A DNA stretch of 64,000 nt from Clostridiaceae bacterium (GTDB lineage Bacteria; Bacillota; Clostridia; Lachnospirales; Lachnospiraceae), in contig CAJTGE010000006.1 in the NCBI GenBank assembly GCA_910575795.1, positions 1-64,000 of the forward strand, written 5' to 3'. Numbering within the stretch: position 1 is the stretch's first letter; the number at the start of each line of letters is the position of its first letter. This document shows, piece after piece, positions 14,201-30,584 of the stretch. Both the position numbers and the translations under genes were made by a program. The notes under the pieces are model-generated. The model did not search any database, was not told the DNA's origin, and saw only the letters and a program-made list of their open reading frames with translations.

Positions 14201-15346
14201 TCACCGCAGCACATCCCCTGTGATCTCATATTCTTTATGCCGCGGTTTTTCCTTCACAAGCATACATGCTTTCACAATTTCCGTAATGATCCTGGCCCGG
14301 TTTCGGCTTTCATAGTATCCGATGATAGGAGCAGTCGGGCTGCTGTCCACCACCACGTATTTGGGCGGCAGGCAGGTCAGGCATAATGCTATAACATCCG
14401 CGCAGCATCTGCTGCAGGTGCATACATCGTACTTTTCCATCTGATCTTTCAGATTTGTCCTTCCCAGCACCTTCTCCACCACGTTTAATATCTGGTATTC
14501 TTTTTCCTGAACCGGACTCATATCTCCGGACGCAGGCGTCTGCTCCTGCACAGGTGAGGGGCCAGCGCTGACGGCGCTATCCGTTTCGGACGCGGACTCC
14601 TCCAAAGCCTCTGCGCTCTCATCCGGCGCGCCGCCTTCCTGCAAAATCTCCTCCTGGGGCGCTTCTGTTTCAGCCGCCTCTTCTGCCGGAACAGCCGGCT
14701 CCGCTGCGGCCGGTTCCGTCTCCTGTTCCGATATATCCTGTTCGGATTCGGAGTCTGACACATCATCAGCCGGCTCTGATAAGCGGCTCTCAGCCTGCCC
14801 TTCCTCTCCTACAGCGACGCTGCTCTCCGGCTGGCTTCCGCTTTCCACAGCGCTGTCGCTCTCCGGCTGGTTCCCGCTTTCCACAGCGCCTTCGCTCTCC
14901 AGCCGCTCCGCCTCCGGTGCTTCCGGTTCACTTTTTGCCTCTTCTTCCGCCGCCTGCAGCAAGGTCTGCTCCAGATGTTCCTCAAGGCGTCCTTTGATCT
15001 CTTCCGATATCTTATCGCTGTCGCTGTCATCGACTACTATCACTTTTTTGTCGGTTCCCGCCTGCGGCGCTGCCGGAGCGGCCGCGCCTGCTCCCGGGGA
15101 CGCTGTCTGGGCAGAAACCGACGCTGCCGGGGCGGATCCGGGAGCAGCCTCGCCTCCGGCCTGTGACAGCGCTCCAGCCGGCGCTGCGCCGGATTCCCCG
15201 GCGTTCTCCGCCGGCGCGTTCAGGCCGCCATCTGTCTCCGGATTCCCGGCCTCTGCGTCTTCCGCTGCTTTTGTTTCCGGCTCCGCCGGAGCGCCGTTGG
15301 TAATCAGATTGAGCACATGCGAGGTTTTATTCGTTTTCCTGGCCAT
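14201..15346 (-). CDS. ComFB-domain protein with long acidic linker
   Basis: The C-terminal ~95 residues match the late competence protein ComFB family: YQILNVVEKVLGRTNLKDQM, then the cysteine cluster VCTCSRCCADVIALCLTCLP and PKYVVVDSS. ComFB proteins have been reported as cyclic-dinucleotide receptors in other bacteria (established knowledge, not visible here). The first ~25 residues are basic (MARKTNKTSHVLNLITNG). Residues about 25-275 are a low-complexity Glu/Pro/Ala/Ser linker with imperfect repeats such as ESGSQPES, probably disordered. The start overlaps the ParA gene by 20 bases. Last gene of the fla/che operon; function unknown. Confidence 0.8.
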   Translation of the reverse strand: MARKTNKTSHVLNLITNGAPAEPETKAAEDAEAGNPETDGGLNAPAENAGESGAAPAGALSQAGGEAAPGSAPAASVSAQTASPGAGAAAPAAPQAGTDKKVIVVDDSDSDKISEEIKGRLEEHLEQTLLQAAEEEAKSEPEAPEAERLESEGAVESGNQPESDSAVESGSQPESSVAVGEEGQAESRLSEPADDVSDSESEQDISEQETEPAAAEPAVPAEEAAETEAPQEEILQEGGAPDESAEALEESASETDSAVSAGPSPVQEQTPASGDMSPVQEKEYQILNVVEKVLGRTNLKDQMEKYDVCTCSRCCADVIALCLTCLPPKYVVVDSSPTAPIIGYYESRNRARIITEIVKACMLVKEKPRHKEYEITGDVLR

Positions 15347-16127
15347 CTCCCAACACCTCCTTTAAGTGAATCGTATCTGCTATTTCTTCCAAAAATTCCC
15401 TGTAATCCTGTACGGCGGCGGAACGGGGATTGTATTCAAAGATACTTTCTCCATGCGCAGGCGCTTCGGCGACTGCCACTCCGGTCCGGATCTTGGTTTC
15501 AAAGACCTTTGTCCCAATCTGATCGGCGAGCTGCTGCGCCATCTCTAAGACATCCCTGGAAAGCAGGGTACGCTTGTTAAAACGGTTTAACAGGATTCCC
15601 AGTACATTCAGCCTTGGGTTTAAAGAGTCGCGGACCGATTCAATGGTTTCCTTAAGCTGGGAGAGCCCGACCAGGCTCAGGATGTCGGAGGCCATGGGGA
15701 TGATGAGGAAATCGGATACAGCGTAGGCATTTACAGTCAGAAGATTCAGGGCCGGAGGAGTATCGATGACCACATAATCATATTCCCCGATAACAGGGGC
15801 GAGCGCGTCCCTCAGGATATATTCTCTGTGTTTTGTCGCGACCTGCTCCAGGCCCCCGCTGCTTAAGGTGATGTCAGAGGGGAGAATATCACAGATTTCT
15901 GTTTTATGGATTGCCTGCCGTGCGGACATCCGTCCCTTAAGAGCGTCCAAAACCGTAGGACCATTTGACAGCTCCGCGCCCAGGCAAAAGCCTAAGTTAC
16001 CCTGCGGATCTAAATCAATACATAATATACGCCCGCCGGCTAAAGCGATCCCTGCGGCCAGTGCCGCTGAAGTGGTCGTTTTCCCGACGCCGCCCTTCTG
16101 ATTTGTTACAGTGATAATCGTAGCCAA
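15327..16127 (-). CDS. ParA/Soj-family ATPase
   Basis: A 266-residue P-loop ATPase. The deviant Walker A, KGGVGKTT at residues 11-18, is preceded by TVTNQ; CIDLDPQGN is the A' motif and YDYVVIDTPP is Walker B. Relatives position chromosomes, plasmids, chemoreceptor arrays or flagella by dimerising on DNA or partner proteins. It resembles Soj/ParA (NQKGGVGKTTTS) more than the flagellar FlhG/YlxH type, whose membrane-targeting C-terminal helix is not evident. It lies in the fla/che operon beside a ComFB-domain gene instead of ParB, while flhF and flhG are absent. Role in positioning flagella or chemotaxis clusters is inferred. Confidence 0.9.
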   Translation of the reverse strand: MATIITVTNQKGGVGKTTTSAALAAGIALAGGRILCIDLDPQGNLGFCLGAELSNGPTVLDALKGRMSARQAIHKTEICDILPSDITLSSGGLEQVATKHREYILRDALAPVIGEYDYVVIDTPPALNLLTVNAYAVSDFLIIPMASDILSLVGLSQLKETIESVRDSLNPRLNVLGILLNRFNKRTLLSRDVLEMAQQLADQIGTKVFETKIRTGVAVAEAPAHGESIFEYNPRSAAVQDYREFLEEIADTIHLKEVLGDGQENE

Positions 16128-16169: not shown

Positions 16170-17114
16170 TTATGATTCCCATAGAAGCAGCTCCGCCTCG
16201 CTGGGAAACATATCAACCGTCTGATTAATATTGTCCTCTGTAAGGAATATAACCGGATTCGGGAGCGGGCTTCCGGCGTCCGCCGCGGCTTCTGCAAGCC
16301 CCTCGTCCCATTCCTCGCGGCTGCTTTCGCTGCCGTTGATATAGAACAGAGGCGTATCCCAGTCGTCCTGTCTTGTCGTAAAGTGCCAGACATTATCAAA
16401 GAAAAGCCCCCCGTCGTCCAGGAGAAAATAGTCTTTATCCCAGCCGTTGCCGTAATCCGATACCAGCCAGGTCGTCTCCGTCTCAGCATTGCGTGCCAGC
16501 CATGTGGCTTCTGTTCCCTCCGCATCCGCCAGGGCGGCGGGAACGAGCTCTGCCTCATCCCTGTCCCATATGCCGATATACAGCATACGGCGGGGCGCGG
16601 AGGCGCGATCCACGACCGCCAGATCCTTGTAACCGTCGCCGTTTAAGTCTGCAATCACAAAACCCGGGCGCTGCGATGCGTCCGCCTGTTTAAATTCTTT
16701 GCTCTTTAAATAGGAATTGAGCTGCTTTTTCATATCCTTGCGCCAGTCGTCATACTTCTCCAGGATCACGCCGTCCGAGCCCACAAAATGGCCGTCATGC
16801 GTAAAGGAATTGTAGCGTTTGGCGCCGTCGTCTCCCAGATAATATTTGTTTCCGTCGTCCTTATCTTTATACCATCCGGTTTTCATATAGCCCTTGGAAT
16901 CAAAGTAGTATTCCTTTCCGTCAACTTCAACCCATTTATCCTCAGCCGGTTCGTCCGGGGCGTACATATACATCCAGTGCTTCCCGTCCTCAGACATATC
17001 CCAGTCGCCGCCATAAGCAGCAAAAGGGCCTGCGGCTGCAGTCAAAGCCGCCAGGCAGAGGGCGGCAGAAAGCAGACGTCTTTTACCGGTTCTTTTTCTG
17101 TTTTTCATGTGCAT
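16170..17114 (-). CDS. Secreted cell-wall-binding-repeat protein
   Basis: The 314-residue product begins with a basic stretch (MHMKNRKRTGKRR) and a hydrophobic signal sequence ending in an Ala-rich cleavage region near residue 34. Residues about 38-100 contain glucan/choline-binding-type aromatic repeats (KWVEVDGKEYYFDSKGYMKT, GWYKDKDDGNKYYLGDDG). Residues about 148-160 (VIADLNGDGYKDLAVVD) resemble a calcium-binding FG-GAP-like DxNxDGxxD loop. It lies inside the fla/che operon between cheV and parA, unusual for a surface protein. Possibly it helps the flagellum traverse or anchor in the wall; this is a guess. The start follows AAAGGAGAGGGGAG. Confidence 0.75.
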   Translation of the reverse strand: MHMKNRKRTGKRRLLSAALCLAALTAAAGPFAAYGGDWDMSEDGKHWMYMYAPDEPAEDKWVEVDGKEYYFDSKGYMKTGWYKDKDDGNKYYLGDDGAKRYNSFTHDGHFVGSDGVILEKYDDWRKDMKKQLNSYLKSKEFKQADASQRPGFVIADLNGDGYKDLAVVDRASAPRRMLYIGIWDRDEAELVPAALADAEGTEATWLARNAETETTWLVSDYGNGWDKDYFLLDDGGLFFDNVWHFTTRQDDWDTPLFYINGSESSREEWDEGLAEAAADAGSPLPNPVIFLTEDNINQTVDMFPSEAELLLWES

Positions 17115-20935: not shown

Positions 20936-21706
20936 TTATAGATGTGTATTCATATAGGCCTTCAGCTTGCGGATCGCTCCGCTGTGGATCTGGGAAATCC
21001 TTGGTTCGCTGACCTCCATCACCTGTGCAATCTGGCTCATATTCAGTTCTTCCACGTAATAAAGCGAAATAACCATCTGTTCCTTTTCTTTTAGGCTTCC
21101 TATGGCCTCTGTCAGGATCCTCAGCGTTTCCTCCCGGAGAAAGGCCCGTTCGGGCTGGGAGGCGATATCCCTGCTGGGGATCTGAACCGGCTGGCGCTCA
21201 TCGTCGTCGCCTGTCATCATATCCAGGGACAGCACATTGACCATAGCGCTCATCCGCTGGATCTTCTGGCACTTTTTGAGATCCATCTGCAAATGCCTTG
21301 CGATCTCCTCGTCCGTGGGCTGGCGCCTCAGCGTCTCTGACAGATGAAGCCTCGCCGCCTCAATGGATTTGTTCTGCCTGTGGTAATCTCTGGGCATCCA
21401 GTCATTTTTCCGAACCAGGTCGATCACCATGCCGCGGATGCGCCTTGATATAAAAGTTTCAAATTTGTTGTCTTTTTCCGGGTCATACCGATCGATTCCC
21501 TTCATTATGGCAATGACCCCTTCGTTGATAATGTCTTCCATCTGCATGATGCCGGAGTAAAGGTTGTGCATCTGCACCGCTATCGCCCGCACGATATATA
21601 CGTACCGCAGGGTCAGTTCCTGCTTGACAGGCTGGCTCTGATCCCTCTGATACAGGGCGAACAGCTCTTCATTCGTCTTTTCCTTTAACTCATCCAACTG
21701 CTGCAT
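20936..21706 (-). CDS. sigD: RNA polymerase sigma-28 factor SigD/FliA
   Basis: The 256-residue sigma factor directs transcription of late flagellar, chemotaxis and autolysin genes. Region 2 is at residues about 25-95 (MEDIINEGVIAIMKGIDRYD, FETFISRRIRGMVIDLVRKN). Region 3 starts near 110 and includes TDEEIARHLQM. Region 4 at about 200-250 contains LKEKEQMVISLYYVEELNMS then QIAQVMEVSEPRISQIHSGA. Its presumed promoters (GCCGATA boxes) lie in this window before flgM, fliD and the FliK-like gene, and FlgM is its anti-sigma. It follows flhA directly, without flhF/flhG. Confidence 0.96.
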   Translation of the reverse strand: MQQLDELKEKTNEELFALYQRDQSQPVKQELTLRYVYIVRAIAVQMHNLYSGIMQMEDIINEGVIAIMKGIDRYDPEKDNKFETFISRRIRGMVIDLVRKNDWMPRDYHRQNKSIEAARLHLSETLRRQPTDEEIARHLQMDLKKCQKIQRMSAMVNVLSLDMMTGDDDERQPVQIPSRDIASQPERAFLREETLRILTEAIGSLKEKEQMVISLYYVEELNMSQIAQVMEVSEPRISQIHSGAIRKLKAYMNTHL

Positions 21707-21724
21707 CTATCATCACCCTTTGCC

Positions 21725-23857
21725 TCAATTCCCTCTAAAGCCTGGTGATTCCAGCTTCAGGCTGCCTATTGACTGTATCTGGATATTGTTTGAAATCTCA
21801 TTGAAGGAAAGTATCCTCACATTCGGATAAAACTGGTCGATCAAACGGTAAAAATGCATCCGCATCACCTGAGATGTCAGGATCACAGGCGTCTGCGTCA
21901 GGCCGTTGAACTTCTTAAGCTGCTCCGCAAGCTGGCGTATCAGGCTCTGGAGCACATCCGGGCTCAGCGCCAGGTAGAAGCCGTTCTCCCCCTTTGCCAG
22001 GGAGCCGACCATGGTCCTCTCCAGCTCCGAATCAAGCGTGATCACCTTCATACTGCCATCCTCGCAGTACATACGGGTAATCGTGCGCTTTAAGTTACTT
22101 CTGATCTTCTCAATGATCGCATCAATATCCTTCACAGGAAGTCCTGTCTCCGTAATGGCCTCGATCGTCGTCTCTATAATCGTCTCCAGATCCTTGATCG
22201 GAACGCCTTCTTTTAAAAGGCTTATCAGGATGCGCTGGAACAGGCTGTAGGTAACAAGCTGCGGGAACGCCTCCTCCACCAGTTCAGGCGCTGACTTTTT
22301 CACATTCTCGATCAGGTGGATGACCTCCTGCCTTGTAATCAGCTCATAGGCATGCTGTTTGATTACCTCCGACAGATGCGTTACCATAACGGACAGGGGA
22401 TCAATGACCGTATATCCGTAAAGCTCCGCCTTTTCCCGGTCCTCCGGCCGGATCCACCGGCTGGGAATCCCGTAGGCAGGCTCAATCGTCTCAATACCGT
22501 CAACCTCCCGCTCGAGATGCTCCGGCTCCAGGGCCAGGAAATAATCCATCAGGATCTCTCCGCGGGCAACTTCCTCCCCCTTTATTTTAATACAATATTG
22601 GTTGATACTCAAGCCCGAACTGTCGCGAAGGCGGATGGACGGGATAACAAATCCCATATCCTGCGCGTACTGCCTCCGGAAAATCACGATACGGCTTATC
22701 AGCCGTCCTCCCACGGACTCGTCGGCAAGAGGAATCAGGCTGTAGCCGAACTCCATCTCCACCGGCTCCACCGACAGAAGCGTGTAAACATTATTGACAT
22801 CCTTGAAGTATTCCTCCTCTGTAACCGTCTCCGGCGCGCTCTCTGCGGGAGCTTCTTCCCCGGCCGTGCCGGAGCCGCTCTCCTGAAAGAATGCCTGTGA
22901 GGCCCGCGACGGCTCTTCCTGGATCCGTCTGCCAAGGAAATAACCGCCTGTGATCAGGGATACCGATACAAGCCCCATCTGAATAATGGGCATGCCCGGT
23001 ATCACGGTCAGGATCGCCACCGCTGCGCCGCTGACCATGATCGCCTGCGGCTGAGCCAGGAACTGTTTGGAAATATCCTCATTGAGGCTTCCCTCTGCGA
23101 CAGCCCTGGTCACGATCATGCCGGTCGCCGTGGAGATCAGCAGGGACGGGATCTGGCCCACCAGCCCGTCGCCCACAGTCGCAATGGAATACGTGTTTAA
23201 TACATTCCCGATCGTATCTCCTGACTGGACGATTCCGATGATGCTTCCGCCGATCAGGTTGACGGCAGTGGTGATAAGAGACATCACCGAGTCGCCCTTT
23301 ACGATCTTCGTGGCGCCGTCCATGGAACCGTAGAAGTCAGCCTCTCTCTGTATCTTTTCTCTCCGTATCTTCGCCTGCTGTTCGTCAATCAGGCCGGAGC
23401 TTAAGTCCGCGTCGATCGCCATCTGCTTACCGGGCATAGCGTCTAAGTTAAACCTGGCGGCCACCTCGGCCACGCGCTCCGCGCCCTTGGTGATAACAAT
23501 GAACTGCATGAGTACAATGATCAGGAAGATGATAATACCTACCACAACATTTCCCTGCAGGACGAAATCGCCGAAAGCCTTAATCACATGCCCCGAGGAA
23601 CCGCCGCGGCTTAAGATGTTTCTGGTGGTCGATACGTTAATCCCTAACCGGAACAGGGTGGTAATCAAAAGCAGGGACGGGAATATCGCAAATTCCAGCG
23701 GCTCCCTGATGGTCATGGTTATCACCAGTATCATCATTGATAAGGATATATTCAAAATAATCGCCACATCCACCAATGCCGGAGGCATGGGTATAATCAG
23801 CAGCAACACGATCGTGAGTACAAATAGTACCACTGAATAGTTTAGTAACTTTTTCAT
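21725..23857 (-). CDS. flhA: Flagellar export gate protein FlhA
   Basis: FlhA is the major inner-membrane export gate, and its cytoplasmic ring docks chaperone-substrate complexes. The 710-residue protein has about eight membrane helices in residues 1-320 and the FHIPEP signature region (ERVAEVAARFNLDAMPGKQM, AIDADLSSG). The cytoplasmic domain follows, with GFVIPSIRLRD and PVILTSQVMRMHFYRLIDQF. The ATG at 23857, with GGAG eight bases upstream, is preferred over a GTG at 23878 that overlaps the flhB stop. Confidence 0.96.
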   Translation of the reverse strand: MKKLLNYSVVLFVLTIVLLLIIPMPPALVDVAIILNISLSMMILVITMTIREPLEFAIFPSLLLITTLFRLGINVSTTRNILSRGGSSGHVIKAFGDFVLQGNVVVGIIIFLIIVLMQFIVITKGAERVAEVAARFNLDAMPGKQMAIDADLSSGLIDEQQAKIRREKIQREADFYGSMDGATKIVKGDSVMSLITTAVNLIGGSIIGIVQSGDTIGNVLNTYSIATVGDGLVGQIPSLLISTATGMIVTRAVAEGSLNEDISKQFLAQPQAIMVSGAAVAILTVIPGMPIIQMGLVSVSLITGGYFLGRRIQEEPSRASQAFFQESGSGTAGEEAPAESAPETVTEEEYFKDVNNVYTLLSVEPVEMEFGYSLIPLADESVGGRLISRIVIFRRQYAQDMGFVIPSIRLRDSSGLSINQYCIKIKGEEVARGEILMDYFLALEPEHLEREVDGIETIEPAYGIPSRWIRPEDREKAELYGYTVIDPLSVMVTHLSEVIKQHAYELITRQEVIHLIENVKKSAPELVEEAFPQLVTYSLFQRILISLLKEGVPIKDLETIIETTIEAITETGLPVKDIDAIIEKIRSNLKRTITRMYCEDGSMKVITLDSELERTMVGSLAKGENGFYLALSPDVLQSLIRQLAEQLKKFNGLTQTPVILTSQVMRMHFYRLIDQFYPNVRILSFNEISNNIQIQSIGSLKLESPGFRGN

Positions 23858-23874
23858 TCTGCTTACTCCATATG

Positions 23875-24981
23875 TCACAATTTATTGAACATATCCTCCC
23901 TGTTCGTCGCCTTGTATATATAAACCAGAAGTTCCGCTATCGCGCCGTAAAATTCGGCGGGTATCTCCCGGTCCAGCTCACAGGAAGCATATAATGCTCT
24001 GGCAAGGGGCCTGTTCTCTATCACAAATACCCCGTGTTCCTCTCCCACCTTTATGATACGCAGCGCCAGCTTATCCTGGCCCTTGGCCAGGACCACAGGC
24101 GCAAGGTTCTGATCCGGATCATACTTGAGGGCAACCGCAAAGTGGGTCGGGTTTCTTACAATCACATCCGCCTGCGGAACCTTCTGCATCATACGGCTCA
24201 TAGCCATCTGTCTCTGCAGGCGGCGGATACGGCCCTTGATCTCCGGATTTCCCTCGGTCTGCTTGTATTCGTCCTTAACCTCCTGCTTGGTCATCTTCAG
24301 CTCTTTCTCATATGTCCATCTCTGATAGAGGTAATCAAAAAATGCAACCACAGTAAAGGCCAGGGCCACCTTGAGAATCAGATTGAATATCCGGTTCAGC
24401 ATGAAAATCGCCGAATTAAAGGGAACCATATCGATCGTCCTGGAAACCGGCGTCAGATCCCCCTTTATTATGTTATAGAGAATGGCCAGAAGTATGCTGA
24501 TTTTAATCAGGTTTTTGATCAGCTCAACCGCCTTCTTTAAGGAAAACATATTTTTAATACCCTTTAAAGGGTTCAGCTTGCTGAATTTGGGCCTTATTAC
24601 CTTAAAGGATACATTAAAGCGCGTCTGTATGCCTCCTGCGATAATACCGCAGACCATGGCCACCAGTAAAAGCGGCAGGGCGCATTTTGCAAAGGCAACC
24701 ACCGTAGCCATAAACAGCTTATAAGACAGGAAGGAGCTCGAAATCTGGCCGATTCCGCCGAACACCCACTTCATGTAATCGCGAAGCGTCCTGTAAATGA
24801 GCGGCATCATAATACGCGCAACCCAGAAAACCCCTACCAGCATCACGACGGTAATAACATCCCGGCTCTGGAATACATTACCTTCTTTTCTCGCGTCGCT
24901 CCGCCGTTTACCAGTAGGCTGTTCGGTCTTTTCCTGACCGTTGCTCTCCGCCAAGCCCTCACCACTTCCTTTCTGCTGCAA
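23875..24981 (-). CDS. flhB: Flagellar export switch protein FlhB
   Basis: FlhB switches export specificity from hook to filament subunits. Four membrane helices lie between residues about 40 and 215. The cytoplasmic domain carries the autocleavage motif NPTH at residues 277-280 (VIVRNPTHFAVALKYDPD), intact. Total 368 residues. The start is a TTG at 24981 or, more likely by spacing to GGTGAGG, a TTG at 24954; both are non-ATG. It lies between fliR and flhA. A separate gene at 513-842 encodes a stand-alone copy of this cytoplasmic domain. Confidence 0.95.
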   Translation of the reverse strand: MQQKGSGEGLAESNGQEKTEQPTGKRRSDARKEGNVFQSRDVITVVMLVGVFWVARIMMPLIYRTLRDYMKWVFGGIGQISSSFLSYKLFMATVVAFAKCALPLLLVAMVCGIIAGGIQTRFNVSFKVIRPKFSKLNPLKGIKNMFSLKKAVELIKNLIKISILLAILYNIIKGDLTPVSRTIDMVPFNSAIFMLNRIFNLILKVALAFTVVAFFDYLYQRWTYEKELKMTKQEVKDEYKQTEGNPEIKGRIRRLQRQMAMSRMMQKVPQADVIVRNPTHFAVALKYDPDQNLAPVVLAKGQDKLALRIIKVGEEHGVFVIENRPLARALYASCELDREIPAEFYGAIAELLVYIYKATNREDMFNKL

Positions 24982-26771: not shown

Positions 26772-27123
26772 CTTCTTCCTCCTTCTTCTGTTTATGGGAG
26801 AAAGCGTATTTCTTCAGAACATCTCCGAACGCATGCTCTGCCAATATCCCCGCAGGCTGCGTATTCTCCTTAAGCTCCCCCTCAATCTCGGTCAGAAGCT
26901 CAATGCCGGCCGAACTGACTCCGAGAAGAAAACAATGCTCCTGCACTTTTACGAGAAGAAGCTGCCTGTCCGCTCCCACCTGAAGGCGTTCGAGGACGCG
27001 CATATTGCCGCCCGACGCCGCTCTCCCCCAGCTTCTCCCAAGGAGGCGGCTGCACCACCATGCCAGGAACAAGACGCATGCCACTGCCACAAGCGCTCCC
27101 GTCAGAGCTGTAAAGTCCTCCAT
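26764..27123 (-). CDS. fliO: Flagellar biosynthesis protein FliO (FliZ-like)
   Basis: A 119-residue protein with a single membrane helix at residues about 8-30 and a small cytoplasmic domain containing MRVLERLQVGADRQLLLVKV, the FliO pattern. FliO stabilises FliP assembly. The ATG at 27123 shares bases with the fliY stop (TGATG), giving coupled translation. An earlier in-frame start lies within fliY and is rejected. The C-terminus is a Lys/Glu-rich tail. Confidence 0.9.
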   Translation of the reverse strand: MEDFTALTGALVAVACVLFLAWWCSRLLGRSWGRAASGGNMRVLERLQVGADRQLLLVKVQEHCFLLGVSSAGIELLTEIEGELKENTQPAGILAEHAFGDVLKKYAFSHKQKKEEEDE

Positions 27124-28532
27124 CACAGGCACTCCGGAATCAGGTTCCTGGCTACAATCTCCGTAATTCTTATGCCGAAATTGTCCTCTACGACTACGAT
27201 ATCTCCTCTGGCAATACATTCCCCGTTTACATACAGGTCAGCCTGCTCTCCCGCCATCTTGTCAAGCACAACGAGCGAGCCCTGGGTAAATTCCAGAATA
27301 TCCTTTACCAGCTTCTTGGTGCGTCCTATCTCCACGGAGATTTCGAGCGGAACCTTCATCAGCATCTCCTGATTGGTCCGGTTCTCCTGTCCGTCTCCTG
27401 CCTCGTCCTCCAGCACAGGGGAACTCATCGGGCGGATCAGGGAAGGCTCTGAGCTCTTCTTTGTCTCCTTTGCCTTGTTGTTCTCCCGCATGCTCTGCAT
27501 AAGCTCCATCATCTGCATCTGGGACTGCTGCATCTGGTTTAAAAGCTGCAGCATCATCGGATCCTGAGCGGCCTGATAAACAGCCTGCGGCGCGGCATAG
27601 ACAGGCGCGCTCTGCACAGGCGGTACGGGAACCGGGGCCGGAGCAGGCGCAGGCGCGGCTGGCTGTGAAGCCGCCATCATCGCCTCAATCTCCGCCTGTG
27701 ACATCGCTGCTCCCGACGCGGCGGCCGGTTCGGCGGCTGGCTGTGAAGCTGCCATCATCGCCTCGATCTCCGCCTGTGACATCGTCGCTCCAGGCGCGGC
27801 GGCCGGTTCGGCGGCTGGCTGTGAAGCTGCCATCATCGCTTCGATCTCCGCCTGTGACATCGTTGCTCCCGACGCGGCGGCCGATTCGGCGGCCGGCTCT
27901 TCTTTCTTCTCCTCCCGGGCCGGTGGCTCCGACTCATCCAGGCTCACCTGGAATGGCTCAAGGAGGCGTTTGACCAGATCCTCGGACATGATATTAAAGA
28001 ACTCACTCTTTAACTGCCCTTCAATCTCCAGTGAAAAACGAACCACGACTCTGCTGCAGTTTTCCGGAAAATATTTTTCTTTAAAAACCGTGTCGCTCTC
28101 AATCTCAAAGGATACCGGAGTGGAGATATCCACAGGAATCCCTAAAAATTCGGCCAGCGCTGTGGCGGAGGAACCCATCATCTGGTTCATAACCTCACAG
28201 ATTGCGCTGCGGTTCATCTCGTCCAGCTCGAACTGATCCGGCGGGATCTCCTCTCCCATCATCATCCCTACAATGATTCTGACGTCATTGCGGCTGAACA
28301 TCATGATATTACGGCCGTCCAGGCCCTTCACATAGGCAATCTCAACGCCCACTGCCGGCTCAAGCTTTTTGAATTCAAATTCGCTGCCTGCAAGGACTCT
28401 GACAACAGGTGTGGTAATATTTACTGCCGTGCCCAGCATGGTGGAAACCGCGGTTGCCGAAGCGCCCAGGCTTATATTCATTATCTCGCCGATGGCGTCT
28501 ATTTCCATTTCATTAAAGCTGTTAGCACCCAT
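27123..28532 (-). CDS. fliY: Flagellar switch protein FliY/FliN with triplicated CheY-binding-like motif
   Basis: The N-terminal CheC-like phosphatase domain (residues about 1-200) keeps both active-site pairs: E16/N19 in EIMN and E113/N116 in EVMN. The C-terminal SpoA/FliN domain is at about 385-469 (MLMKVPLEISVEIGRTKKLV, YVNGECIARGDIVVVEDNFG). The linker holds three 26-residue tandem repeats whose core MSQAEIEAMM occurs at 225-234, 251-260 and 277-286. That core resembles the FliM N-terminal motif LSQSQIDALL, which binds CheY-P. Pro/Ala-rich and Gln/Met-rich stretches follow. Likely a switch-complex component that both binds and dephosphorylates CheY-P. Confidence 0.93.
   Translation of the reverse strand: MGANSFNEMEIDAIGEIMNISLGASATAVSTMLGTAVNITTPVVRVLAGSEFEFKKLEPAVGVEIAYVKGLDGRNIMMFSRNDVRIIVGMMMGEEIPPDQFELDEMNRSAICEVMNQMMGSSATALAEFLGIPVDISTPVSFEIESDTVFKEKYFPENCSRVVVRFSLEIEGQLKSEFFNIMSEDLVKRLLEPFQVSLDESEPPAREEKKEEPAAESAAASGATMSQAEIEAMMAASQPAAEPAAAPGATMSQAEIEAMMAASQPAAEPAAASGAAMSQAEIEAMMAASQPAAPAPAPAPVPVPPVQSAPVYAAPQAVYQAAQDPMMLQLLNQMQQSQMQMMELMQSMRENNKAKETKKSSEPSLIRPMSSPVLEDEAGDGQENRTNQEMLMKVPLEISVEIGRTKKLVKDILEFTQGSLVVLDKMAGEQADLYVNGECIARGDIVVVEDNFGIRITEIVARNLIPECL
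27661..27894. repeat. Three 78-bp in-frame tandem repeats inside fliY
   Basis: Units start at 27661, 27739 and 27817 (each beginning GGCTGTGAAG on the plus strand), giving an exact 78-bp period, or 26 codons. They are nearly identical, with mostly synonymous differences, pointing to recent duplication or ongoing homogenisation. Copy number could vary between strains by slippage or recombination. Confidence 0.9.
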
Positions 28533-28557: not shown

Positions 28558-29007
28558 TTATTTCCCTATATCTAATGCTCTCTGGGCCATCAGCTTCATT
28601 GCGTTTAAGGCTGTGACGTTTGCCTCGTAGGATCGTGTCGCGGACATGCTGTCCACAGTCTCTTTCAACAGATCCACATTGGGCATATTCACATAGCCCT
28701 CTTCATCTGCATCCGGATGATCCGGATTATAGACCCGCTTCATCTCCCGGTCGTCCTGTATAATCCCTGCAACCCTCACGCCTCTCGCCGCGCTGGCATA
28801 TCCGCGGCCGTGCGATGCATTGCGCAAAGCTTCGCGAAAAGAATTGCCGCCAAAGCTTTCAAAGACGACATCCTTTCTCTGGTAGGAACCGCCTCCCTGG
28901 GTCCGGGTCGTGTCAATATTTGCGATATTCTCTGCGGCAATATCCATCCTGAGGCGCTGCGCGCTTAAGCCGGAAGCGCAGATATCAAACGAACCTAAAA
29001 ATGCCAT
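28558..29007 (-). CDS. flgC: Flagellar basal-body rod protein FlgC
   Basis: FlgC is a proximal rod subunit. The 149-residue protein has FDICASGLSAQRLRMDIAAE then NIANIDTTRTQGGGSYQRKD at the N-terminus. The conserved VRVAGIIQDDREMKRVYNPD then HPDADEEGYVNMPNVD block is followed by the C-terminal YEANVTALNAMKLMAQRALD. It is normally encoded between flgB and fliE; here it lies between cheY and fliY, about 13 kb away. Confidence 0.95.
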   Translation of the reverse strand: MAFLGSFDICASGLSAQRLRMDIAAENIANIDTTRTQGGGSYQRKDVVFESFGGNSFREALRNASHGRGYASAARGVRVAGIIQDDREMKRVYNPDHPDADEEGYVNMPNVDLLKETVDSMSATRSYEANVTALNAMKLMAQRALDIGK

Positions 29008-29022
29008 TTTAATTCCCCCTGC

Positions 29023-29385
29023 CTATTTGCCCAAAACGGCGTTGACGGTCTGGACAATCCTGTCTGCATTGAACGGCTTAACGATGAAATCCCTGGCTCC
29101 GGACTTAATAGCGTCCACTACCATACTCTCCTGGCCCATGGCTGTACACATCACAACCTTGGCTCCGGCGTCAGACTCTTTGATCTTCTTAAGCGCCTGC
29201 AGACCGTCCATGTTCGGCATAGTGATATCCATAATCACCATATCTGGCTTCTCCTCGCCGTACTTCTGCACAGCTTCCGCGCCATCCTGCGCTTCCACAA
29301 AATCGGTATACCCGCTGGCGGTCAGCGCTTTTTTAATCATCATCCGCATAAATGCCGCATCATCAACCAACATAATCTTTGCCAT
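29023..29385 (-). CDS. cheY: Chemotaxis response regulator CheY
   Basis: The 120-residue single receiver domain has the acidic pair D8-D9, the phospho-acceptor D53 (MVIMDITMPNMDG), the switch Thr81 and the invariant Lys103. CheY-P binds FliM and FliY to change rotor direction. It lies 108 bases after fliM and 16 bases before flgC. The ribosome site is AGAGAGGAA. Confidence 0.97.
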   Translation of the reverse strand: MAKIMLVDDAAFMRMMIKKALTASGYTDFVEAQDGAEAVQKYGEEKPDMVIMDITMPNMDGLQALKKIKESDAGAKVVMCTAMGQESMVVDAIKSGARDFIVKPFNADRIVQTVNAVLGK

Positions 29386-29492: not shown

Positions 29493-30584
29493 TCATCCTT
29501 CGCCCGAGGCATACGCAGGTTCAAACTCCTCTGCGTTCTCTTCGCTCTCTTCGCTCTCGTAGGTCCTTTCTTCAATGCGTACAGCCACATTTTTCTTATA
29601 TACGCCCATCTGTCCGGTAAACCAGGGCTGTCTGCCCACATACAGCTTCACGCTGCTGTTCTTGGGCTTGTTCAGATCAATGATGTCGCCCACCTTCAGA
29701 TGATAGATATCCTTCAAGTCAAGCTCAACCGTACCAAGCTGCCCGGTTACCGGGAGCTGCGTATAACGGATATTGTCCATAATGATATCCTTGTTATCCT
29801 CATAGGCAAAGCCCCTCGCGATATGCTTACGGCTGTCTATCATGGAGAAGATAAATTCCAGAAGCGTACCCGGCATACAGATCCGGATTTTTTCCACCGC
29901 AAGGCCGGACACATCCACATTCAGGTGGATAATCGCCACCGTCTCGTCGAGTCCGAGCTCCTGCACCATGCTGGGATTCTCTTCTATCCTCTGTATCTGG
30001 AACAGGATGTTGATATAATTGGAAAATCCATCCTTTAAAGCCGCTGTAAAATACTCCACCACCCGGCGGTAAAGAGCCACCTCTACGTCGGAATAACGAT
30101 ACTCCGGCTCTACCTTCATTACTTCCTCGCCTCCGCCCAGCATACGGTTGATCAGGGTGATCACCAGGCCCGGCGTGACGTACATCATCAGAGGAACATT
30201 ATTCTTTCCCCTGTCCACCACAGTGGCATCAATCAGCGTCATACAATCATTCTCATGGAATGCGTTTACATATTCATAATACCTGCGCTCCTGAACCTCC
30301 ATCACCGTTATGTCTGTCATAACGCGGAAGATTCCGTTTACCTGGGAGGTAATGATCCGGGCGTAGTTTTCAAATACGCTGGTCAGGATCTTCATCTTCT
30401 CCTTTGTAAACTTCCGGGGACTGTAGAAGTCATACCTGCTGTATTTCCTCTCATCTGCCTCCGGCTTTGGCTTCTGCGTCTGAGCTTGCTTCTGTTCAAC
30501 TACCTCGGGCTCCTGCTCAGGTTCGCTGTTCTGCATGGACTTCAAAAGCGCGTCTATCTGACTTTGGGATAATACATCTGCCAT
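29493..30584 (-). CDS. fliM: Flagellar motor switch protein FliM
   Basis: FliM links the FliG ring to the C-ring and receives CheY-P. The 363-residue protein starts with the CheY-P-binding peptide LSQSQIDALLKSM at residues 5-17. A Glu/Lys/Gln linker follows, then the CheC-like middle domain (about 60-250, GGGEEVMKVEPEYRYSDVEV) and the C-terminal SpoA domain (about 260-335, LPVTGQLGTVELDLKDIYHL). The acidic C-terminal tail is about 25 residues. No fliL precedes it; motB is the upstream neighbour with a 23-base gap. Confidence 0.96.
   Translation of the reverse strand: MADVLSQSQIDALLKSMQNSEPEQEPEVVEQKQAQTQKPKPEADERKYSRYDFYSPRKFTKEKMKILTSVFENYARIITSQVNGIFRVMTDITVMEVQERRYYEYVNAFHENDCMTLIDATVVDRGKNNVPLMMYVTPGLVITLINRMLGGGEEVMKVEPEYRYSDVEVALYRRVVEYFTAALKDGFSNYINILFQIQRIEENPSMVQELGLDETVAIIHLNVDVSGLAVEKIRICMPGTLLEFIFSMIDSRKHIARGFAYEDNKDIIMDNIRYTQLPVTGQLGTVELDLKDIYHLKVGDIIDLNKPKNSSVKLYVGRQPWFTGQMGVYKKNVAVRIEERTYESEESEENAEEFEPAYASGEG

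Follow-up and report, generated by a model that had tools for sequence, protein, structure and literature searches.

A tandem array of FliM-like motifs, a candidate CheY-P docking site, in the linker of a clostridial FliY

In both FliM and FliY the EIDAL/EIDALL motif is a site at which CheY docks, as passages of PMC9126983 and PMC6946799 describe, and it is the alpha4-beta5-alpha5 surface of CheY that takes up the FliM N-terminus, according to a portion of PMC11528121. The fliY gene of a Clostridiaceae bacterium encodes a peptide resembling this motif three times over in the interior of the protein, which raises the question of what such a motif serves when it is moved and multiplied. We analysed the window that holds this gene (64,000 nucleotides, positions 1 to 64,000 of contig CAJTGE010000006.1, assembly GCA_910575795.1) together with FliYs from related genomes and from a sample of the class.

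The fliY gene and the repeats in its linker

The product is a FliY and predicted phosphatase whose CheC module has two intact signatures (Table 1). Pfam places CheC (PF04509, 2e-22) in two stretches and FliMN_C/SpoA (PF01052, 5.8e-21) at residues 390-460, the NCBIfam model NF005995 ('flagellar motor switch phosphatase FliY') scores 283.3 bits against a cut-off of 218, and PDB entry 4hyn, the Thermotoga maritima FliY with a homologous CheC domain, is matched at E 9.1e-33. Both D12/E16/N19/P42 and S109/E113/N116/P139, a pattern that we take to be the CheC active-site signature, are invariant in 40 sequences (alignment A2).

The first-pass annotation had reported MSQAEIEAMM three times at an exact period of 26 residues; direct reading of the DNA bears this out, and TRF finds a repeat unit of 78 bp, or 26 codons, with 92% matches. 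A frame or assembly artefact is ruled out by a 94% identical relative (L002/L031), in which the array recurs and differs in length only by one residue missing from one unit. The array lies between the CheC module and the SpoA domain, in a flexible Ala/Pro/Gly-rich linker. When modelled by AF2 on a 40-sequence alignment, the CheC module is confident and the linker of low confidence; short helices predicted in the linker coincide with the three motifs at a block pLDDT of only about 46-61, and are suggestive only. Met/Gln-rich stretches resembling residues 325-353 are found in many of those relatives' FliY linkers that were inspected.

Table 1. Features of the window around the fliY linker array
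Feature	Position	Strand	Description and basis
ParA-like ATPase	15327-16127	-	near chemotaxis genes, same cluster as fliY
717-aa ORF, then fliA directly	20936..23878	-	no flhF/flhG between; ORFs, FliA family
fliY CDS	27123..28532	-	469 aa, CheC - linker - SpoA; Pfam, NCBIfam NF005995, PDB relative 4hyn
C-terminal SpoA (FliN-like) domain	27147..27371	-	residues 388-462; Pfam
Met/Gln-rich linker helix	27474..27560	-	residues 325-353; AF2, block pLDDT about 73-85
78-bp tandem repeat coding for the linker array	27655..27898	-	TRF, 3.1 copies
Motif copy 3, MSQAEIEAMM	27675..27704	-	residues 277-286; FliM matrix; predicted helix 279-285
Motif copy 2, MSQAEIEAMM	27753..27782	-	residues 251-260; FliM matrix; predicted helix 254-259
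Motif copy 1, MSQAEIEAMM	27831..27860	-	residues 225-234; FliM matrix; predicted helix 228-234
CheC phosphatase module	27945..28514	-	residues 7-196; Pfam; two D/S-x3-E-x2-N-x22-P signatures; AF2 pLDDT mostly >90
Small ORF between CheY and fliY	28558-29007		same direction as fliY; ORF list
CheY	29023..29385	-	Pfam Response_reg; upstream of fliY, presumed ligand
FliM	29493..30584	-	Pfam FliM and FliMN_C
FliM N-terminal CheY motif, LSQSQIDALL	30543..30572	-	residues 5-14

Likeness to FliM was scored with a matrix made from FliM N-termini only (27 distinct 10-mers out of 127 FliMs), with which 212 FliY sequences were scanned; it was used instead of a motif pattern that misses the versions LSQEEIQAML, LDQSAVDALL and LTPDEIAAMV. 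The window FliY has three matches, all in the linker, and none to this matrix at its N-terminus. Each copy scores 14.0, to be set against the best score per shuffled FliY in 4240 shuffles, whose 99th percentile lies at 12.0 and whose highest value is 14.8. By this score a single copy is only marginal alone, but three identical copies in register are not chance; a chance motif is ruled out, and the resemblance to the FliM CheY-P peptide LSQSQIDALL that had been claimed for the repeats is upheld. In FliM itself the canonical N-terminal motif is present in 128 of 128 full-length proteins of the analysed loci (in the L046 FliM it stands at residue 74, the ORF being read from an upstream stop). The repeats match the FliM CheY-docking peptide (EIDAL) over 10 residues; the FliM peptide is N-terminal, whereas the window copies are internal and tandem, and they have Glu for Asp and, at positions 1, 9 and 10, Met for Leu, substitutions because of which their affinity for CheY could be low.

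Position, number and conservation of the motif among FliYs

A profile search of genome contigs with an alignment of six relatives gave the best 80 of 500 confirmed candidates, ranked by window similarity; the nearest relative among these best 80 of 500 is Clostridiaceae bacterium 1XD21-72, and the other records in that set bear the labels Lachnospiraceae, Enterocloster, Hungatella, Lacrimispora, Oscillibacter, Intestinimonas and the like. Further FliYs came from 30 loci of 41 relatives and from 243 genomes drawn evenly across the class. With a minimum length of 350 residues, we kept 190 distinct FliYs; the 22 of 212 that were dropped are identical duplicates (e.g. L031, L087, L149) or have fewer than 350 residues, many of these short ones being cut by contig ends.

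The motif is N-terminal only (before the CheC domain) in 97 of the 190 FliYs, with three N-type proteins that give two N-terminal matches read as one motif plus the first CheC helix. It is in the linker only, in 1-5 copies, in 69 of the 190, a number that draws on the best 80 of 500 and gives no prevalence estimate, the sampling being drawn towards the window; in the class sample, linker copies occur in 3 of 100 FliY-bearing genomes. Neither position is occupied in 24 of the 190, and both are occupied in none. The linker types all fall in one Clostridia clade of 83 tips (support 0.985), in which 69 tips, as sampled, have strong linker copies; the 14 others, two of which (L047 and L051) keep weak copies, include zero-copy FliYs scattered over several parts of the clade. 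As sampled, the array thus replaces the N-terminal motif instead of adding to it, and is a trait of the whole clade. The view of the usual FliY as having one N-terminal copy or none holds for ordinary FliYs; in the clade of the window FliY, as sampled, linker copies are the commoner condition, with 69 of 83 tips.

Counted by protein, linker copies number one (14 proteins), two (25), three (24), four (5) or five (1), with one genome sampled per species and with a possible undercount in draft assemblies, such as G040, whose contigs end inside the fliY array (L005 at its end, L157 at its start). Motif spacing ranges from 22 to 43 residues across the clade, and repeat units differ in length and sequence. 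The L051 linker contains three identical degenerate LTPDEIAAMV copies, the usual Gln being changed to Pro in all three; this array has changed or lost its motif in unison. Second, motif-free FliY-like sequences (L219, L220, L221) stand beside an ordinary N-type FliY in G280, G113 and G245. Among open-licence PMC papers, judged by titles and abstract starts, none was found that describes a FliY whose CheY sites are multiple, whether in tandem or otherwise repeated. CheC-SpoA FliYs and the FliM-type motif are known; what appears to be new is a motif relocated to the linker and multiplied there.

Is the motif maintained in these linkers? Over 13 close, partly overlapping pairs of FliYs, pN and pS are 0.023 and 0.404 for motif codons, 0.022 and 0.383 for CheC, 0.014 and 0.438 for SpoA, and 0.137 and 0.493 for the rest of the linker; these pairs share members, and motif positions are those called motif in both, which favours conservation. 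A comparison of 10 pairs in which motif regions are defined from one member only removes that bias, and gives changed residues at 17 of 230 motif positions versus 440 of 1669 in the other linker; the corresponding counts are 108 of 2050 for CheC and 18 of 820 for SpoA. Seven of the 17 motif changes are gaps in the pair L066/L090, which differs in copy number, and single pairs are mostly not significant alone. The motif is under purifying selection like the folded domains, while linker codons outside it drift.

In a set of 55 proteins, copies from one protein match each other at 9.13 of 10 positions and match those of the nearest neighbour (taken at core identity below 92%) at 7.87, the likeness being higher within the protein in 37, equal in 13 and lower in 5; motif column frequencies are those of matrix-chosen matches. 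In their codons, all three window copies have TCA for the motif Ser and GCT two positions further on from the motif, whereas the L031 copies all have TCG and a Ser codon at those two places. As each gene has its own codons common to all its copies, the copies have been homogenised within genes since the split of the window and L031. For the 83 tips of the clade, parsimony requires no fewer than 30 changes of copy number, some FliY tree nodes being weakly supported, against a mean of 47 and a minimum of 39 in 200 label shuffles; copy number is thus inherited, yet often changed. The first-pass annotation had named an invariant repeat number and unconserved motif residues as results that would tell against its reading: strong copies vary from 0 to 5 among relatives, and the motif residues are conserved where the rest of the linker is not.

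Motif position and the presence of FlhF and FlhG

The N-terminal end of FliY has a second reported partner. The N-terminal 36 residues of the Geobacillus/Bacillus protein (FliY-N36) are necessary and sufficient for FlhG binding, according to a section of PMC12327844, and FlhG of B. subtilis binds to FliY but not to FliM, as stated in part of PMC12826062. A B. subtilis-type FliY shares with the window FliY the CheC module with its two signatures, the SpoA domain, the motif family and the flagellar operon context; its EIDAL site is N-terminal, whereas the window FliY has none there and three in the linker, and the window genome is without detected FlhF/FlhG. The genes flhF and flhG are often located between flhA and fliA. 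In the window fliA follows directly on the 717-aa ORF (Table 1), which by its position is presumably flhA.

Genome-wide, no FlhF over the cut-off was found in the window's own genome (G000, 95.8% complete), nor any FlhG match at 1e-20. Among the 41 genomes (own and relatives), full-length FlhF matches occur in 21, 19 over the cut-off and two (G032, G039) slightly under it. An N-terminal FliY motif is present in 17 of these 21; G032 (L023) and G039 (L011) are without it, and G011 and G028 stand outside the count, not being assessable from loci. No full-length FlhF match was found in eight FliY-bearing genomes of the 41 (G000, G001, G002, G003, G007, G020, G022, G040). Of the 41, 20 have FlhG matches at 1e-20. 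None of these eight is among them, the four with arrays (G000, G002, G020, G040) and the array-free clade members G001 and G003 included; G032, which has FlhF, also gave no FlhG match at 1e-20. FlhF over the cut-off was found in 0 of 50 genomes with clade FliYs.

In the class sample, FliY is present in 100 of the 243 genomes, FlhF in 91 and both in 90; where both are present, the motif is N-terminal in 86 and in the linker in 0, and the ten genomes with FliY and without FlhF have linker copies (3), an N-terminal motif (1) or neither (6). The exceptions are G172 (L153, 91% complete), with an N-terminal motif and no detected FlhF, and four FlhF-positive genomes without an N-terminal match (L197, L199, L206 and L218, its start cut). 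FlhG can be ruled out as the partner of the array in the window genome, since neither FlhG nor FlhF was found in it, and this leaves CheY as the known ligand of a FliM-type motif. In FlhF-less lineages that split off immediately outside the linker clade, FliY is without any motif, so the linker motif may have arisen anew after loss of the N-terminal one, although not all tree nodes concerned are well supported.

What the linker repeats may dock

We consider it probable that the linker repeats are a CheY-P docking array of the FliM kind, serving both the FliY phosphatase and the switch. In the clade, the single N-terminal peptide of FliY would have been given up and a tandem linker array put in its stead. 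A repeat would take the form of a short helix when bound to CheY-P at its alpha4-beta5-alpha5 face. With several of these sites next to two CheC centres, the local concentration of CheY-P at the switch would go up, and the held molecules could be hydrolysed faster by FliY, handed to FliM, or both. The linker that follows the FliM peptide is discussed, in a passage of PMC7355467, as a flexible tether that could bring CheY to further C-ring sites; by analogy, extra FliY sites should hold more CheY-P near phosphatase and switch. What we infer is CheY-P binding, an effect on phosphatase rate or motor bias, and tuning by copy number.

Several observations count against docking of CheY-P. The T. maritima FliY is reported, in a part of PMC7355467, to have no higher affinity for active CheY. 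The 14 clade members without a strong linker copy still carry genes for FliM and CheY in the vicinity, which makes the array dispensable. In CheY no difference between array and no-array species was evident on comparison, though the CheYs of both differ at several positions from those of N-type loci. In favour of docking, the alpha4-beta5-alpha5 stretch of CheY is largely conserved and the FliM motif is kept throughout.

As a partner of the array, the ParA-like ATPase encoded in the same cluster ranks second to CheY. An array that docks this MinD/ParA-type protein in place of FlhG could serve C-ring assembly or flagellar placement, for which the docking of FlhG by FliY-N36, described in a section of PMC12327844, is a precedent. 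A homologue at 50% identity or more is present in 33 of 37 clade genomes searched; in G007 and G022, which are FlhF-less and do not belong to the clade, it stands at 47 and 44%, and the best match in 11 N-type genomes searched is 41%. It is present, however, in all seven strong-copy-free clade genomes (G001, G003, G049, G055, G062, G064, G076), whereas no match above 40% was found in the array genomes G051, G061, G065 and G074, some of whose assemblies may be incomplete and which have 4, 2, 2 and 3 strong copies (L042, L055, L061, L078). The homologue thus tracks the lack of FlhF and not the array, and we regard this partner as unlikely. In chemotaxis clusters of other bacteria, ParA-type proteins position chemoreceptor arrays, which also speaks against a role at FliY; the protein is possibly either an FlhG substitute or a positioning protein of this type. 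On one side, the ParA-like gene is adjoined by that of a ComFB-domain protein (14201-15346, minus strand) with a long acidic low-complexity N-terminal part and a 36-bp tandem repeat at 14811-14900. On the other, between it and a CheW-receiver (CheV-like) gene, sits the gene of a choline-binding-repeat protein (16170-17114, minus strand) with a signal-peptide-like start, odd company in a chemotaxis cluster.

The repeats might instead have no partner outside the ring, as amphipathic helices that contact FliM, SpoA domains or a neighbouring FliY and set ring geometry without a role for CheY. Salmonella FliM residues 34-45 bind a FliN dimer, according to a portion of PMC11528121, and the FliY linker has a further predicted helix; but the motif matches the CheY-contacting FliM peptide, the FliN-binding stretch of FliM being another one, and a variable copy number is hard to square with a fixed ring contact, so that we think this explanation quite improbable. 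We give slightly less credence still to neutral slippage, in which an Ala/Pro-rich linker expands and contracts and carries along a motif-like stretch without function. The 78-bp units, 92% alike and homogenised within genes, would suit such a process, as would strong-copy numbers of 0-5, with zero occurring at several places in the clade; against it, motif codons are constrained like folded domains where flanking linker codons are not, and this constraint holds in units of differing sequence and length (spacing 22-43 aa).

Returning to CheY-P docking, a wider account can be given, which we offer tentatively and rate at somewhat less than an even chance. In a large clade of Clostridia that are without FlhF/FlhG, a dual-use N-terminal peptide (for FlhG in assembly, for CheY in signalling) would have been given up for a dedicated, multivalent CheY-P antenna in the linker, kept uniform by homogenisation, whose copy number would change often enough to be an evolutionary gain control on both switch and phosphatase.

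Drawings of the chemotaxis switch usually give every subunit a set number of CheY sites. In this clade the candidate sites per FliY vary from 0 to 5 across related species while the FliM site stays constant, and this variation makes the effect of extra CheY sites on gain, cooperativity and signal termination directly testable. The link of FliY motif position with the occurrence of FlhF/FlhG suggests, in turn, what may become of a peptide with two partners once one of them is lost.
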